IMG/VR virus record: IMGVR_UViG_3300030109_002144
Span: 1 to 32,843 of that record
DNA: 32,843 nt
DNA from: a virus
Direction: 5' to 3' (one strand)
Shown: piece by piece, positions 8,699 through 18,616 of the stretch
Layout: every line of letters starts with the position of its first letter
Position numbering within the stretch: the first letter of the stretch is position 1
The notes under the pieces: model-generated
Told to the model about the DNA's origin: nothing
Databases searched by the model: none
Seen by the model: the letters and a program-made list of their open reading frames with translations, nothing else
Translations under genes and position numbers: made by a program

Positions 8699-9079
8699 TC
8701 ATCCTAGATCGATGCTAACACTAATATCTCCAGCATGAAGATGCATGTGTTTATCTGGTGCTTTAAAGCCTGCACGATCTAAGATATCCTTGCTTGCTTC
8801 AAGCTGAACGTACTCACTCTTAGCACCACGAGCGAGTTCAATAAGCTTTGCTGTAGCAGTCGTAGCGTTAAGTCCGAGGGTTTCTTGAATCCTCGTCATC
8901 ATATATGCTTGGACATGCTTCAGTCGCAAAGCTTTACTGGCTGTCACTCTCCCACTGTCTCCAGTTGCGTAGCCAGCTTCAAGACTTGCATCTTTAATCG
9001 AACATCCTTTTGCTACCAACGTATCAACCAAAGCCGTCTGTTTCGCCGTCAATGTCCGACTTGTATCTATCTTATTCAT
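8699..9079 (-). CDS. Terminase small subunit
   Basis: This 126-residue protein has the usual small-terminase layout. An N-terminal helix-turn-helix region (LTAKQTALVDTLVAKGCSIKDA then LEAGYAT, residues 10-43) is followed by a helical oligomerisation part (GRVTASKALRLKHVQAYM) and a C-terminal ASKDILDRAGFKAPDKH segment seen in many TerS proteins. It would recognise the packaging start and load TerL. It is the first gene of the late arm, next to the divergent control region, and an AGGGGG run about 11 bases before the ATG may serve as ribosome site. Confidence 0.8.
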   Translation of the reverse strand: MNKIDTSRTLTAKQTALVDTLVAKGCSIKDASLEAGYATGDSGRVTASKALRLKHVQAYMMTRIQETLGLNATTATAKLIELARGAKSEYVQLEASKDILDRAGFKAPDKHMHLHAGDISVSIDLG

Positions 9080-9186
9080 TTGGCAAACACCCCCTATATC
9101 CCCCTCTTTACAGACTAAATATGCACCCTGTCAACACACAAAAGATAATAGATGCCATTCGCAAAGGAGCGAATGGTAGCTTATCG

Positions 9187-9778
9187 TATTACCTCGACCA
9201 AATAAAGAGCCTAAGATGCCATGTCTACCAACTCTTAAGTACGGTACATTATGCTCCAATTAATGTATCGAAACTCAGAGTGGTACTAAGCACCCATGAA
9301 CTTGTTATTATAAGTCGCAGTTTCACAAGACGACAAAGTATAAATAAACATCTAAATCTGTGATGTCTAACTCCTATTTCATCCAACCCACCATGCGTGT
9401 TTTTATACGACCTCGAGTTCCTTTGCCCTATGCTAAGTGTCACTAATCACTTCCATCATTTCCAGAACAAAGAACTGACTAATTCAAGTACCCTTAATCT
9501 CAGCCAGCACAACCTAACATCCAATTGATTGCGTTGCCATAAGTTAAGCGTGCGTAAAACTCATGCCATCCAACCTCTAAGATATGCAAAGAAAGTTATC
9601 TCCTGACAAAAACCAACTAAAAGACTACTAAAACCATAACTACTGTTTTCAAAGATGAAGATCTGTAAAAGTGATTTATTCCTAGCCATTTAAACTACTC
9701 CTAAAGATTTAAATCCATGCGAATTACCTAAGAATCATGCTCCAAGTCAGCATAACTCTTTATCTGATACAATTAACT
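9187..9778 (-). repeat. Left arm of long imperfect inverted repeat
   Basis: Read on the minus strand, this stretch aligns along nearly its whole length with the plus strand at 9800-10412, at roughly 70% identity by eye with many indels. Strong blocks include 9643-9656 with 9976-9989 (14 of 14), 9592-9604 with 10009-10021 (13 of 13), 9669-9680 with 9953-9964 (12 of 12) and 9573-9587 with 10022-10036. The match covers leader, gene and terminator, and fades beyond TATTACCTCGAC (9187-9198). Confidence 0.85.
9248..9689 (-). pseudogene. Decayed inverted copy of the 137-residue early gene
   Basis: On the minus strand an ATG at 9689 begins ATGGCTAGGAATAAATCA, matching the start of the gene at 9944. 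The frame hits a stop after 42 codons, and later homology lies in shifted frames up to a CATAAT near 9248 that matches the end of the intact gene. A leader with GGAGTA and a decayed terminator-like stretch (about 9200-9232) are also matched. The copy cannot make the full protein. It faces the late arm, so transcription from a copied promoter could now read into the terminase gene. Confidence 0.8.
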
Positions 9779-9813
9779 GTGCGCTCCAAGAATCCGTAAA
9801 GTTAATGTATCAG
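9764..9813. repeat. Central inverted repeat of the control region
   Basis: CTGATACAATTAACT (9764-9778) faces AGTTAATGTATCAG (9800-9813), pairing over 14 bases with one bulged base around a 21-base loop. It is the innermost and best preserved part of the long inverted duplication. It could extrude as a cruciform or bind a dimeric protein on both sides. An origin or regulator site is possible but not shown. Confidence 0.7.
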
Positions 9814-9814
9814 A

Positions 9815-9875
9815 CTTTATATTGCTGTTCGCTAGATGCTAAGCCTTCGGCTTGGCGAACAGTAGCTTGTAGGTG
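9815..9875. other. 61-base hairpin segment present in one arm only
   Basis: In the right arm TGTATCAGA and TAAAGAG are separated by about 61 bases, whereas in the left arm they are adjacent. The extra segment contains CTGTTCGC (9825-9832) pairing with GCGAACAG (9855-9862). Inside it lies a second hairpin, AAGCC-TTC-GGCTT (9841-9853). It may be a small inserted palindromic element, or the left arm may have lost it. As RNA it would fold strongly in the early leader. Confidence 0.6.
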
Positions 9876-9888
9876 TAAAGAGTGATGC

Positions 9889-9934
9889 TTTGGTTTCCAC
9901 ATGATGGTAATTCCCATCGATTTAAACCAAGGAG
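9889..9934 (+). promoter_or_regulatory. Nested hairpin overlapping the first early ribosome site
   Basis: TTGGTTT (9890-9896) can pair with AAACCAA (9924-9930), and inside it GATGG (9903-9907) pairs with CCATC (9914-9918). The last bases of the outer stem overlap the AAGGAG ribosome site at 9929-9934. Translation of the 137-residue protein could be tuned by opening of this fold. The left arm has lost the outer pairing. Confidence 0.45.
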
Positions 9935-9943
9935 TACTAGAAA

Positions 9944-10357
9944 ATGCCTAAAAATAAATCACTTACAGATCTAACATCTTTGAAAACAGCAGTTATTAAC
10001 CACCACACAGGAGATAACTTTGCATATCTAAGAGGTCAAATGGCACGAGACGCATGCTTTACTTCTAACAACGCAATCAGTTGGAAGGTTGAGCAAATGT
10101 CAGAGGTTAAGGGTGAATTAGTCGTCCTTCGCTCTGAAAATGCTGGTAGTGAAGTGACAACTAATCAGATGTCAAAGAAACTCGACGTCTACAAAAACAT
10201 GCAAGCTGAATTAGCTGAACTAGAACTAAGACATAAAGCAGATTTAGCTGTTCATTCACACTTTGTCGGCGAAACATGGACTAAGAATAAAAAGTCCAAG
10301 GTTACTAAGAACCAACTAGCTGAGTTGGAAGAAATCGATAAATTAATTGCATCATAA
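9944..10357 (+). CDS. First early protein, unknown function
   Basis: This 137-residue hydrophilic protein has a helical core (about residues 50-95, with Glu/Leu/Lys heptad-like spacing QAELAELELRHKADL) and a Lys-rich stretch near the end (TWTKNKKSKVTKNQ). I do not recognise a family. It is the first gene of the rightward arm, has an excellent ribosome site (AAGGAG, nine bases before ATG) and its own strong terminator, which fits a highly expressed early protein such as a host-takeover factor. A decayed inverted copy lies to its left. Confidence 0.75.
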   Translation: MPKNKSLTDLTSLKTAVINHHTGDNFAYLRGQMARDACFTSNNAISWKVEQMSEVKGELVVLRSENAGSEVTTNQMSKKLDVYKNMQAELAELELRHKADLAVHSHFVGETWTKNKKSKVTKNQLAELEEIDKLIAS

Positions 10358-10369
10358 TAACCTCCCTAA

Positions 10370-10400
10370 AGAGTCGGCAGAAATGTCGGCTCTTTTTTTT
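10370..10400 (+). terminator. Intrinsic terminator after first early gene
   Basis: AGAGTCGGC (10370-10378) pairs with GTCGGCTCT (10385-10393) through nine pairs including two G-U pairs, with a six-base loop, and is followed by eight T bases (10393-10400). This is the clearest rho-independent terminator in the window. It separates the first early gene from the rest of the arm. Confidence 0.85.
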
Positions 10401-10443
10401 GTCGAGTTAATAAAGTTGGTTACGAAATAAAGGAGTGTATAAT

Positions 10444-11964: not shown

Positions 11965-12198
11965 ATGCAGTATGTAGATGAAACAAATGAAAAAGTTTTA
12001 TGCGACACAATATGTTATGCTACCGAAGATCCAATTATTGTAGCGTCATATATAAATCGTTTAAAAGAATATTTTTATCCTCTTAATCACGGACATTTAG
12101 AATCACTCGAAGCTGAAGTTAATGCAAAGCTTGATGCTATGGCTGACGAAGCTGAAACAGAAATGATTTTAGATCACGATGAAAGGAGAGTGGTATGA
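11965..12198 (+). CDS. Small acidic unknown protein
   Basis: This 77-residue acidic, mostly helical protein (begins MQYVDETNEKVLCDTICYAT, ends with a Glu/Asp-rich stretch) lies just behind a promoter and palindromic operator. It uses the AACCAAGGAG leader sequence shared by several early genes. Its stop overlaps the ATG of the next gene. I do not recognise it. Control by the same palindrome as the helix-turn-helix gene suggests a regulatory circuit. Confidence 0.65.
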   Translation: MQYVDETNEKVLCDTICYATEDPIIVASYINRLKEYFYPLNHGHLESLEAEVNAKLDAMADEAETEMILDHDERRVV

Positions 12199-12392
12199 GC
12201 AAAGTTATTAAATTTAAAAAAGCAGAACTGCAAACAGTAAATGTGACGGCGAAAGCTACTATTACTTTTCAGTTTGAAGGTGTTAGAACCAATGAACAAA
12301 TTGAAAGTGAGTTCAAATACATCTCAGAAATAATGGATGATAATTTATCAGGCTGGAAATTCTCAATAGACTTAGATAGTTATCTACCATAA
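12195..12392 (+). CDS. Small unknown protein
   Basis: This 65-residue protein begins MSKVIKFKKAELQTVNVTAK and has a beta-rich front and a helical back. It has an AAAGGAG site inside the end of the previous gene and is followed by a terminator-like hairpin, so it closes a two-gene unit. No family is recognised. Confidence 0.65.
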   Translation: MSKVIKFKKAELQTVNVTAKATITFQFEGVRTNEQIESEFKYISEIMDDNLSGWKFSIDLDSYLP

Positions 12393-12406
12393 GAAAAAAG
12401 AAAGTG

Positions 12407-12441
12407 CCGATGGGACCCCCAAATATCCCATCGGTTCTTTC
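12407..12441 (+). terminator. Terminator-like hairpin
   Basis: CCGATGGGA (12407-12415) and TCCCATCGG (12426-12434) form a perfect nine-base stem with a ten-base loop, followed by TTCTTTCG. The T tract is interrupted, so termination may be partial. It separates the two-gene unit from the next promoter. Confidence 0.65.
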
Positions 12442-12466
12442 GACTTTAGTTAATATTAAAAAATAG

Positions 12467-14209: not shown

Positions 14210-14881
14210 ATGAGTTTTGAAAGACATATGGCAACAATGAAACTAGAGTTAAGCGACGGCATTATGAAATGGATATTAATATGTCTTGCTGATTGTGAGA
14301 ATCAAAAAACAGGGCATTGCTTTCCATCAATAGATTATCTTGTTAAAACTTCTGGTGTATCACGATCAACAATTCATGTTAAGTTAAAGAAGCTTGAAGA
14401 CATGAAACTTATACAGCGACATGCTAATCGTGGTCGATCTAATCACTACAGTTTTTTATACGACCTTAAAGTTATACGCAAAGAACCTGTCCGACAGCTG
14501 GACACCCCTGTCCGAGAGATGGACACTAACCTAGAAGTAACCAAGAATAAAGACGTCGACAAGAGCCAGCTTGTAAGTGTGTTCGATACTTGGAATCCTT
14601 CAGAAGATCAAAAACAAATCATAGATAATGAACTACCACATTTAGGAGGTATAGATCACAATGCAGAAATTAAAAAATATAAACGTTATTGGAAAGATAA
14701 AGGCGTCGTCCACTCACCCTTTGCCTGTTACCAAAGTTGGTGTCGAAGAATCCAAGGCGTTAACATTGCTAACAAATCAAGAGAAGAACTCAGCAAGTGT
14801 AGTATTAGCAAAACAAAAGCCAAATCAAACAGAGGAAAAACTTCTCTCGCAAGTGCGTTCGGACTTAGCTTATCAGATTGA
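14210..14881 (+). CDS. Replication initiator with winged helix and DnaT-like end
   Basis: This 223-residue protein starts with a winged-helix domain (residues about 10-85): HCFPSIDYLVKTSGVSRSTI, then HVKLKKLEDMKLIQRHANRG, the helix_turn_helix_36 style of O-like initiators. After a linker, residues about 125-190 resemble the DnaT/DnaD-like second domain (FDTWNPSEDQ then YKRYWKDKGVV and YQSWCRRIQG). It would bind the phage origin and attract the host helicase with its partner encoded next. It has an AAAGGAAA ribosome site. Its last 221 bases overlap the next gene in another frame. Confidence 0.75.
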   Translation: MSFERHMATMKLELSDGIMKWILICLADCENQKTGHCFPSIDYLVKTSGVSRSTIHVKLKKLEDMKLIQRHANRGRSNHYSFLYDLKVIRKEPVRQLDTPVREMDTNLEVTKNKDVDKSQLVSVFDTWNPSEDQKQIIDNELPHLGGIDHNAEIKKYKRYWKDKGVVHSPFACYQSWCRRIQGVNIANKSREELSKCSISKTKAKSNRGKTSLASAFGLSLSD

Positions 14882-18364: not shown

Positions 18365-18380
18365 ACGTGTCCATATAAAG

Positions 18381-18394
18381 ACCCTCAGAGGGGT
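18381..18394. terminator. Weak hairpin between converging arms
   Basis: ACCC and GGGT (18381-18384, 18391-18394) can pair around a six-base loop between the ends of the two arms. On the minus strand it is followed by CTTTATAT. It is the only candidate terminator I see for either arm at the convergence, and a weak one. Confidence 0.3.
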
Positions 18395-18427
18395 AGAAAC
18401 TATAGTCTATGTATGATTGTGACCTAG

Positions 18428-18616
18428 TTATTCCTCTGCTTTCTTAGGAATACAGTAAGCCTTGATAAACACCTTATCGCCAGCGACACGCTGATGGGTG
18501 TTCTGTTCACGTATCTTGGATGAAAATTCAAGGCACAAATCCAAATCATTGAAGTAAATCTCCTCTGTTATCTCAGTGCCTTGCAGTAAAACTACTAATA
18601 CCCATATAAGTTTCAG
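18428..18616 (-). CDS. 62-residue protein with N-terminal membrane segment, CTG start
   Basis: This open frame has no ATG, GTG or TTG start. The best start is CTG at 18616, overlapping the lysozyme stop (CTGA). The product starts with a hydrophobic stretch (KLIWVLVVLLQGTE) and continues ITEEIYFNDLDLCLEFSSKI to a KVFIKAYCIPKKAEE end. I have seen similar short proteins near lysis genes in marine phages, with ATG at this position. It may be membrane-anchored or exported, with two Cys that could pair. A sequencing error at the start codon is possible. Confidence 0.6.
   Translation of the reverse strand: MKLIWVLVVLLQGTEITEEIYFNDLDLCLEFSSKIREQNTHQRVAGDKVFIKAYCIPKKAEE

Follow-up and report, generated by a model that had tools for sequence, protein, structure and literature searches.

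Why would a tailed phage carry, between its late and its early genes, a mirror image of a whole protein-coding unit? The window, by which we mean the entire stretch of DNA analysed here, is a 32.8-kb virus record. The late genes, terS, terL and portal followed by tail genes, occupy the minus strand at left; the plus strand at right carries the early genes, among them those for an ArdC-type antirestriction protein, a methyltransferase, a lambda-O-like initiator, a YqaJ exonuclease and ERF. The mirror sits between terS, the small terminase subunit gene (8699–9079, minus strand; PHROG 2538, E = 5e-10), and gene 1, the first early gene (9944–10357, plus strand). The original prediction took the left half of this region for a decayed inverted copy of the gene 1 unit. 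Here we ask whether the mirror is a relic or is maintained, which strand carries the structure, and what such a structure may do.

The whole gene 1 unit is mirrored

Positions 9187–10412 match their own reverse complement over the full length (69%, E = 3e-116; blastn of 9100–10430 against its own record), which bears out the proposal that the unit is mirrored in its entirety on the minus strand at about 70% identity. Aligned end to end, the reverse complement of 9187–9778 and the segment 9800–10412 reach a local score of 314, well above the chance level set by 200 dinucleotide shuffles (mean 21, maximum 30). The gene 1 leader, ribosome site, 137-codon gene and terminator each have a counterpart in the left arm, and stretches of up to about 15 nt are identical between arms. 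The centre had been placed correctly: RNAfold of the terS-sense strand puts the apex loop at 9783–9795 (minus strand), closed by the pair 9783/9795. An assembly artefact, already thought unlikely, is ruled out by mirrors on many independent contigs.

Read in the terS sense, the right arm (9800–10412, minus strand) is the 5′ arm of the predicted hairpin and lies antisense to gene 1 together with its leader and terminator, an assignment drawn from self-alignment and G.U polarity. The left arm (9187–9778, minus strand) is the 3′ arm, a mimic of the gene 1 unit identified by self-alignment and by covariation with the right arm in relatives. The mimic is non-coding, since many of the indels between the arms shift the reading frame and the longest minus-strand open reading frame in it has 64 aa; with its reading frames broken in this way, we rejected the idea that the mirror copy is a second gene. 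Each arm also has an element of its own. A side stem-loop in the gene 1 leader (9825–9862, plus strand), present only in the right arm, belongs to an unpaired 61-nt insert with its own stem and lies about 65–70 nt before the gene 1 ATG (about 67 nt in the window); most long-hairpin lineages have a right-arm-only leader insert at nearly the same position, with variable sequence. The left arm alone has a bulge (9607–9626, minus strand) opposite about codon 20–21 of gene 1. The matching left-arm-only insert folds into its own stem in L090, L124 and L132 (the L090 clade), and the window's sequence there is similar to that of this clade.

Gene 1 itself, with its ribosome-binding site AGGAG (9930–9934, plus strand) inside the right arm and its intrinsic terminator (10368–10395, plus strand) at that arm's outer end, is, by its substitution pattern, still a translated gene, located in one arm of the structure. 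Its dN/dS among relatives is 0.08–0.45, and in most pairs compared the differences fall mostly at third codon positions. The coding arm is under protein constraint and the non-coding arm follows. The product is a fast-evolving, predicted helical protein, modelled as two long helices (pLDDT 87); it gave no convincing Pfam or PHROG family and no confident PDB match in a structure search, in which viral models returned unnamed phage proteins only. L165 (PBGS01000047.1), the one relative of gene 1 that the genome collection contains, comes from a contig assigned to a Euryarchaeota MAG, probably phage DNA that was misbinned.

The two arms change in step

If the left arm were decaying, the arms of one genome would diverge independently. 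Instead, by full global alignment, the arms are identical to each other at 79% of aligned columns within a genome, whereas left arms of different lineages are identical at 63%, close to the shuffled 60%. Nine comparisons on separate tree paths (L087–L094, L102–L109, L105–L106, L108–L110, L111–L122, L112–L115, L127–L135, L124–L132 and L090–L103) hold 89 double changes from one Watson–Crick pair to another, against about 9 double changes of any outcome expected under independence, the counts being taken from pairwise alignments rather than reconstructed on a tree. Alignment A3, of ten sequences, has 99.3% of its cells paired and 78 pairs changed on both sides; sliding the partner by 1–3 columns lowers pairing to about 40%, and the 254 double-change cells compare with at most 31 when partners are slid. 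Even the loop of the gene 1 terminator is compensated in the left arm. The window and L001, 97.8% identical here, are separated by an indel that is present in both arms at mirrored places.

These alignments thus appear to hold covarying pairs beyond chance, as a conserved structured RNA would. The description of the left arm as decayed was wrong, because relatives show both arms changing together: the arms co-evolve in every clade tested, and their identity is 66–75% everywhere. A decaying one-off duplication is rejected by compensatory changes about ten-fold above expectation and by the higher identity within genomes than between lineages.

Long and short forms in relatives

Many terS relatives have inverted repeats of about 66–75% identity in the gap between terS and gene 1. 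A search with gene 1 proteins yielded 80 loci. In 46 of them, a count that includes the window and some near-identical loci, a mirror with arm identity of 66–75% spans gene 1 beside terS, so that the comparison with related phages, which had been suggested as a check, finds the mirror maintained. Most of the other loci have a mirror over the gene 1 start only. Wherever the left flank was long enough, terS lies at left on the opposite strand (56/56 loci), and the gap between gene 1 and terS is about 735–1010 nt in the long form and about 390–620 nt in the short. Because diverged arms escape blastn, the share of loci bearing a hairpin, on contigs that are mostly metagenomic, should be read as a minimum.

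Short forms have hairpins of ~300–450 nt over the leader and the first part of gene 1; their gene 1 sequences (types B–D) differ from the window's, and we group them with it by position rather than by shown homology. They covary with the same polarity as the long forms, and most fold well beyond shuffles in a test whose chosen stretch truncates some hairpins, L056's among them. Pelagibacter phage Hodr (OQ414635), the only annotated phage with a similar terS (63% aa), folds strongly at the same place, about 12116–12456 of its genome, and its two strands differ little (z −11 and −9.5). L080, in which the first early gene is unrelated, shows little excess folding.

The locus is also exchanged and trimmed. 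L046 and L067 are 90% alike on both flanks and unrelated in sequence across the intervening module; L093 is identical to L087 on the terS side and nearly identical beyond gene 1, and is without about 300 nt of outer left arm while the inner left arm is retained, which shows that the outer left arm can be lost. The gene 1 and hairpin module is swapped or cut between near-identical flanks in these pairs, much as specificity or immunity loci are.

The distribution of the long form on the gene 1 tree requires one gain and one loss, and in about 20 long-clade lineages the outer edge of the right arm falls at or near the T-run of the gene 1 terminator. For these two reasons, inverted duplication of the gene 1 unit is still a reasonable explanation for the origin of the long arms; this part of the earlier proposal survives, and the decay attached to it is contradicted by the compensatory change. 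A start-only hairpin, as in many relatives, would have had its arms extended once, in one clade, over the whole gene 1 unit.

Pairing favours the terS-sense strand

A single transition in a Watson–Crick pair that leaves G.U on one strand leaves A.C on its complement. In the nine comparisons, single transitions read on the terS-sense (minus) strand give 111 G.U against 11 A.C. Standing non-Watson–Crick pairs at 22 loci rank as G.U (392), A.G (275), U.U (123), G.G (103), C.U (80), A.C (64), A.A (61) and C.C (26), a ranking that broadly follows mismatch stability on that strand, and their G.U/A.C ratio is 6.1, compared with about 2.8 predicted from composition using like-like mismatches. Within the window, the G.U excess is little or none beyond base composition, so the strand polarity is a result obtained from the relatives.

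Folding agrees. The terS-sense strand of the window is predicted at −566 kcal/mol (z −26) and the opposite strand at −463 kcal/mol (z −21), and no other 1.2-kb stretch goes beyond −350 kcal/mol. The predicted fold is a single unbranched chain of 466 nested pairs (432–509 in long relatives). Rfam had no family at the gathering threshold in the window or in 12 relatives; two sub-threshold matches at the gene 1 terminator were judged to be terminator look-alikes. Shaping of the rod against RNase III was considered and rejected, as the longest stacked helix is no shorter overall than in shuffles (mean 24.4 versus 26.4).

Promoters and boundaries

No sigma-70-like minus-strand promoter upstream of the hairpin is conserved among relatives. 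The late promoter of terS (TTGACA-16-TGTAAA; 9107–9134, minus strand) is conserved, most terS relatives keeping the form TTGTGCGTTGACA-N16..18-TATAAA at the same place, and it adjoins terS outside the mirror, so that the suggestion of the mirror as its source finds no support. Behind it, just before terS, stand paired G-tracts (GGGGGATATAGGGGG; 9090–9104, minus strand), kept as GGGGGGGaacacaaGGGGGGG in many relatives; they could be an unusual G-rich transcript start or a site for terminase or a regulator. The left arm ends about 50 nt short of this promoter and G-tract pair, and a small stem-loop (9155–9176, minus strand) lies between the hairpin and the promoter.

A replication origin with selected symmetry had also been proposed. 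That reading finds no support, since symmetry of binding sites does not lead one to expect compensated sites scattered in their hundreds, with a preference for G.U on a single strand. The lambda-O-like initiator gene at 14210–14878 also speaks against an origin at the mirror; in lambda, the replication origin lies inside O.

As to where a minus-strand RNA might come from, we found no intrinsic terminator in the interval that separates the converging early and late blocks (18365–18612 of the window), so late read-through is, speculatively, one possible source. Nearby, the predicted protein of 18029–18361 matches PHROG 474, annotated as phosphofructokinase, with under half of the profile covered; that annotation has possibly been propagated by error.

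A probable giant RNA hairpin opposite gene 1

What genome comparison establishes, at the level of sequence, is the long pairing, its conservation by selection and its strand polarity. We consider it probable, with good though not full confidence, that the minus strand of 9187–10412 specifies a selected giant unbranched RNA hairpin of about 1,200 bases and about 460–500 predicted base pairs, whose 5′ arm is antisense to gene 1. That the hairpin is transcribed, that it acts as RNA and not as single-stranded DNA, and that it has a given role are steps that we infer. Control of gene 1 would be the likeliest role of the putative RNA, and we offer it tentatively. The minus-strand RNA would fold into one rod, maintained by compensatory change, and its 5′ arm would be able to cover the gene 1 ribosome site. 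The 3′ mimic arm would compete for the same sequence as the gene 1 ribosome-site region does, so that folding would set the amount of free antisense and hence the silencing of gene 1. As in a cis-antisense RNA, the 5′ arm overlaps the gene 1 leader and start; this holds for the long form and for nearly every short form.

Several observations count against the hairpin-RNA reading: the lack of a conserved minus-strand promoter, the edge at a plus-strand terminator, the outer arm loss in L093 and, for the window by itself, a G.U frequency that composition explains. The edge is easier to reconcile with a plus-strand RNA than with a transcript of the minus strand, which does not explain it except as a relic of the duplicated unit.

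Could the symmetry be sustained without function? Template switching in replication, copying arm onto arm, would uphold a quasi-palindrome by concerted evolution, and the mirrored indel between the window and L001 is a trace that it might leave, as are a few runs of adjacent compensated sites that resemble copied tracts. But the perfect tracts in which compensated sites lie have a median of 5 nt, and 94% of them do not exceed 10 nt, which argues against long conversion tracts, and copying predicts no G.U preference, yet the ratio is 111:11. A ten-fold mutational strand bias would deplete A and C, yet the keto content of the terS-sense strand is only 0.50–0.56. Short template switches may contribute; functionless copying as the whole explanation we hold to be improbable. 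A one-off inverted duplication that supplied the late promoter and is now decaying would account for the single gain of the long form, but with arms that co-evolve at equal identity in all clades and a late promoter outside the mirror we give it almost no credence. The selected structure might also be minus-strand single-stranded DNA, for example a replication or packaging hairpin. Because G.T is favoured in DNA too, where G.T and G.A are likewise more stable mismatches, this reading keeps a small probability; the presence of genes for an exonuclease and an ERF annealing protein would suit it, and a DNA hairpin would fit the lack of a minus-strand promoter. Against it, G.U is the commonest non-Watson–Crick pair, as RNA predicts, and we know of no role of such a kind for a 1.2-kb imperfect DNA hairpin in double-stranded DNA phages.

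A further possibility, which we think unlikely but would not set aside lightly, is that the rod itself is the product and acts in trans, by occupying RNase III or an RNA-sensing defence or as a packaging-related RNA made beside terS; its match to gene 1 would then be a consequence of lying opposite that gene. The rod always adjoins terS, its length and shape are kept while its sequence turns over, and a structured terS–terL RNA of staphylococcal phages is sensed by a CBASS cyclase (PMC10686824). Weighing against action in trans are the nearly constant cover of the gene 1 start by the 5′ arm, the little excess folding of L080 with its unrelated first gene, and the stacked helices, which give no sign of shaping against RNase III.

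Comparison with known RNAs

The cis-antisense RNAs P22 sar and lambda oop, of about 70–80 nt, resemble the putative hairpin RNA in lying opposite the start of a phage gene, where they are able to block translation; here the antisense would sit in one arm of a predicted kilobase hairpin with a co-evolving mimic arm. Viroids, hepatitis delta and obelisks are circular, replicating, rod-like RNAs, likewise of about 1 kb, roughly 70–80% self-complementary and with an open reading frame on one strand, but they are autonomous circular RNA genomes, whereas the hairpin is fixed in DNA phage genomes. The phi29 pRNA is a phage non-coding RNA tied to packaging; it has about 170 nt and a defined compact fold, and only the position of the hairpin beside terS is comparable. 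GOLLD and ROOL are also large structured RNAs of bacteria and phages (Rfam; PMC12286853), but they have branched, ornate folds that form oligomers (PMC12286853), and the hairpin has no Rfam match.

By place, the closest published analogue is the cabRNA of staphylococcal phages, a structured RNA made in the terminase small-subunit region, for which structure matters while the sequence varies between phages (PMC10686824). This cabRNA comes from within terS–terL and activates CdnE03, has about 400 nt or under 50 nt, and forms several short hairpins inside the coding sequence; it is not reported to mirror an early gene (PMC10686824). The hairpin described here lies upstream of terS and outside its coding sequence. 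Searches of the open-access literature for inverted repeats in pelagiphages, long hairpins in phages and large RNAs of phages brought up nothing equivalent.

We lean, with some reserve, towards a new class: a kilobase rod-like phage RNA opposite an early gene, with a non-coding arm that co-evolves with the gene base by base. The antisense of the gene would then always be held in a hairpin, and the class would be spread across many marine phage lineages, with the whole-gene extension in one clade.

Significance

As far as the open-access literature goes, a protein gene and a 600-base non-coding mirror evolving in step have not been reported. Such a gene carries a second constraint, from the mirrored pairing, in addition to that on its protein. 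The persistence of the mirror implies some benefit of a very long duplex to phages present in many marine metagenomes. Since the cultured phage Hodr is strongly folded at the same place, experiment is feasible, and the locus would open long antisense or dsRNA-like regulation in phages to testing, along with the fate of such RNA in the face of RNase III and RNA-sensing defences.
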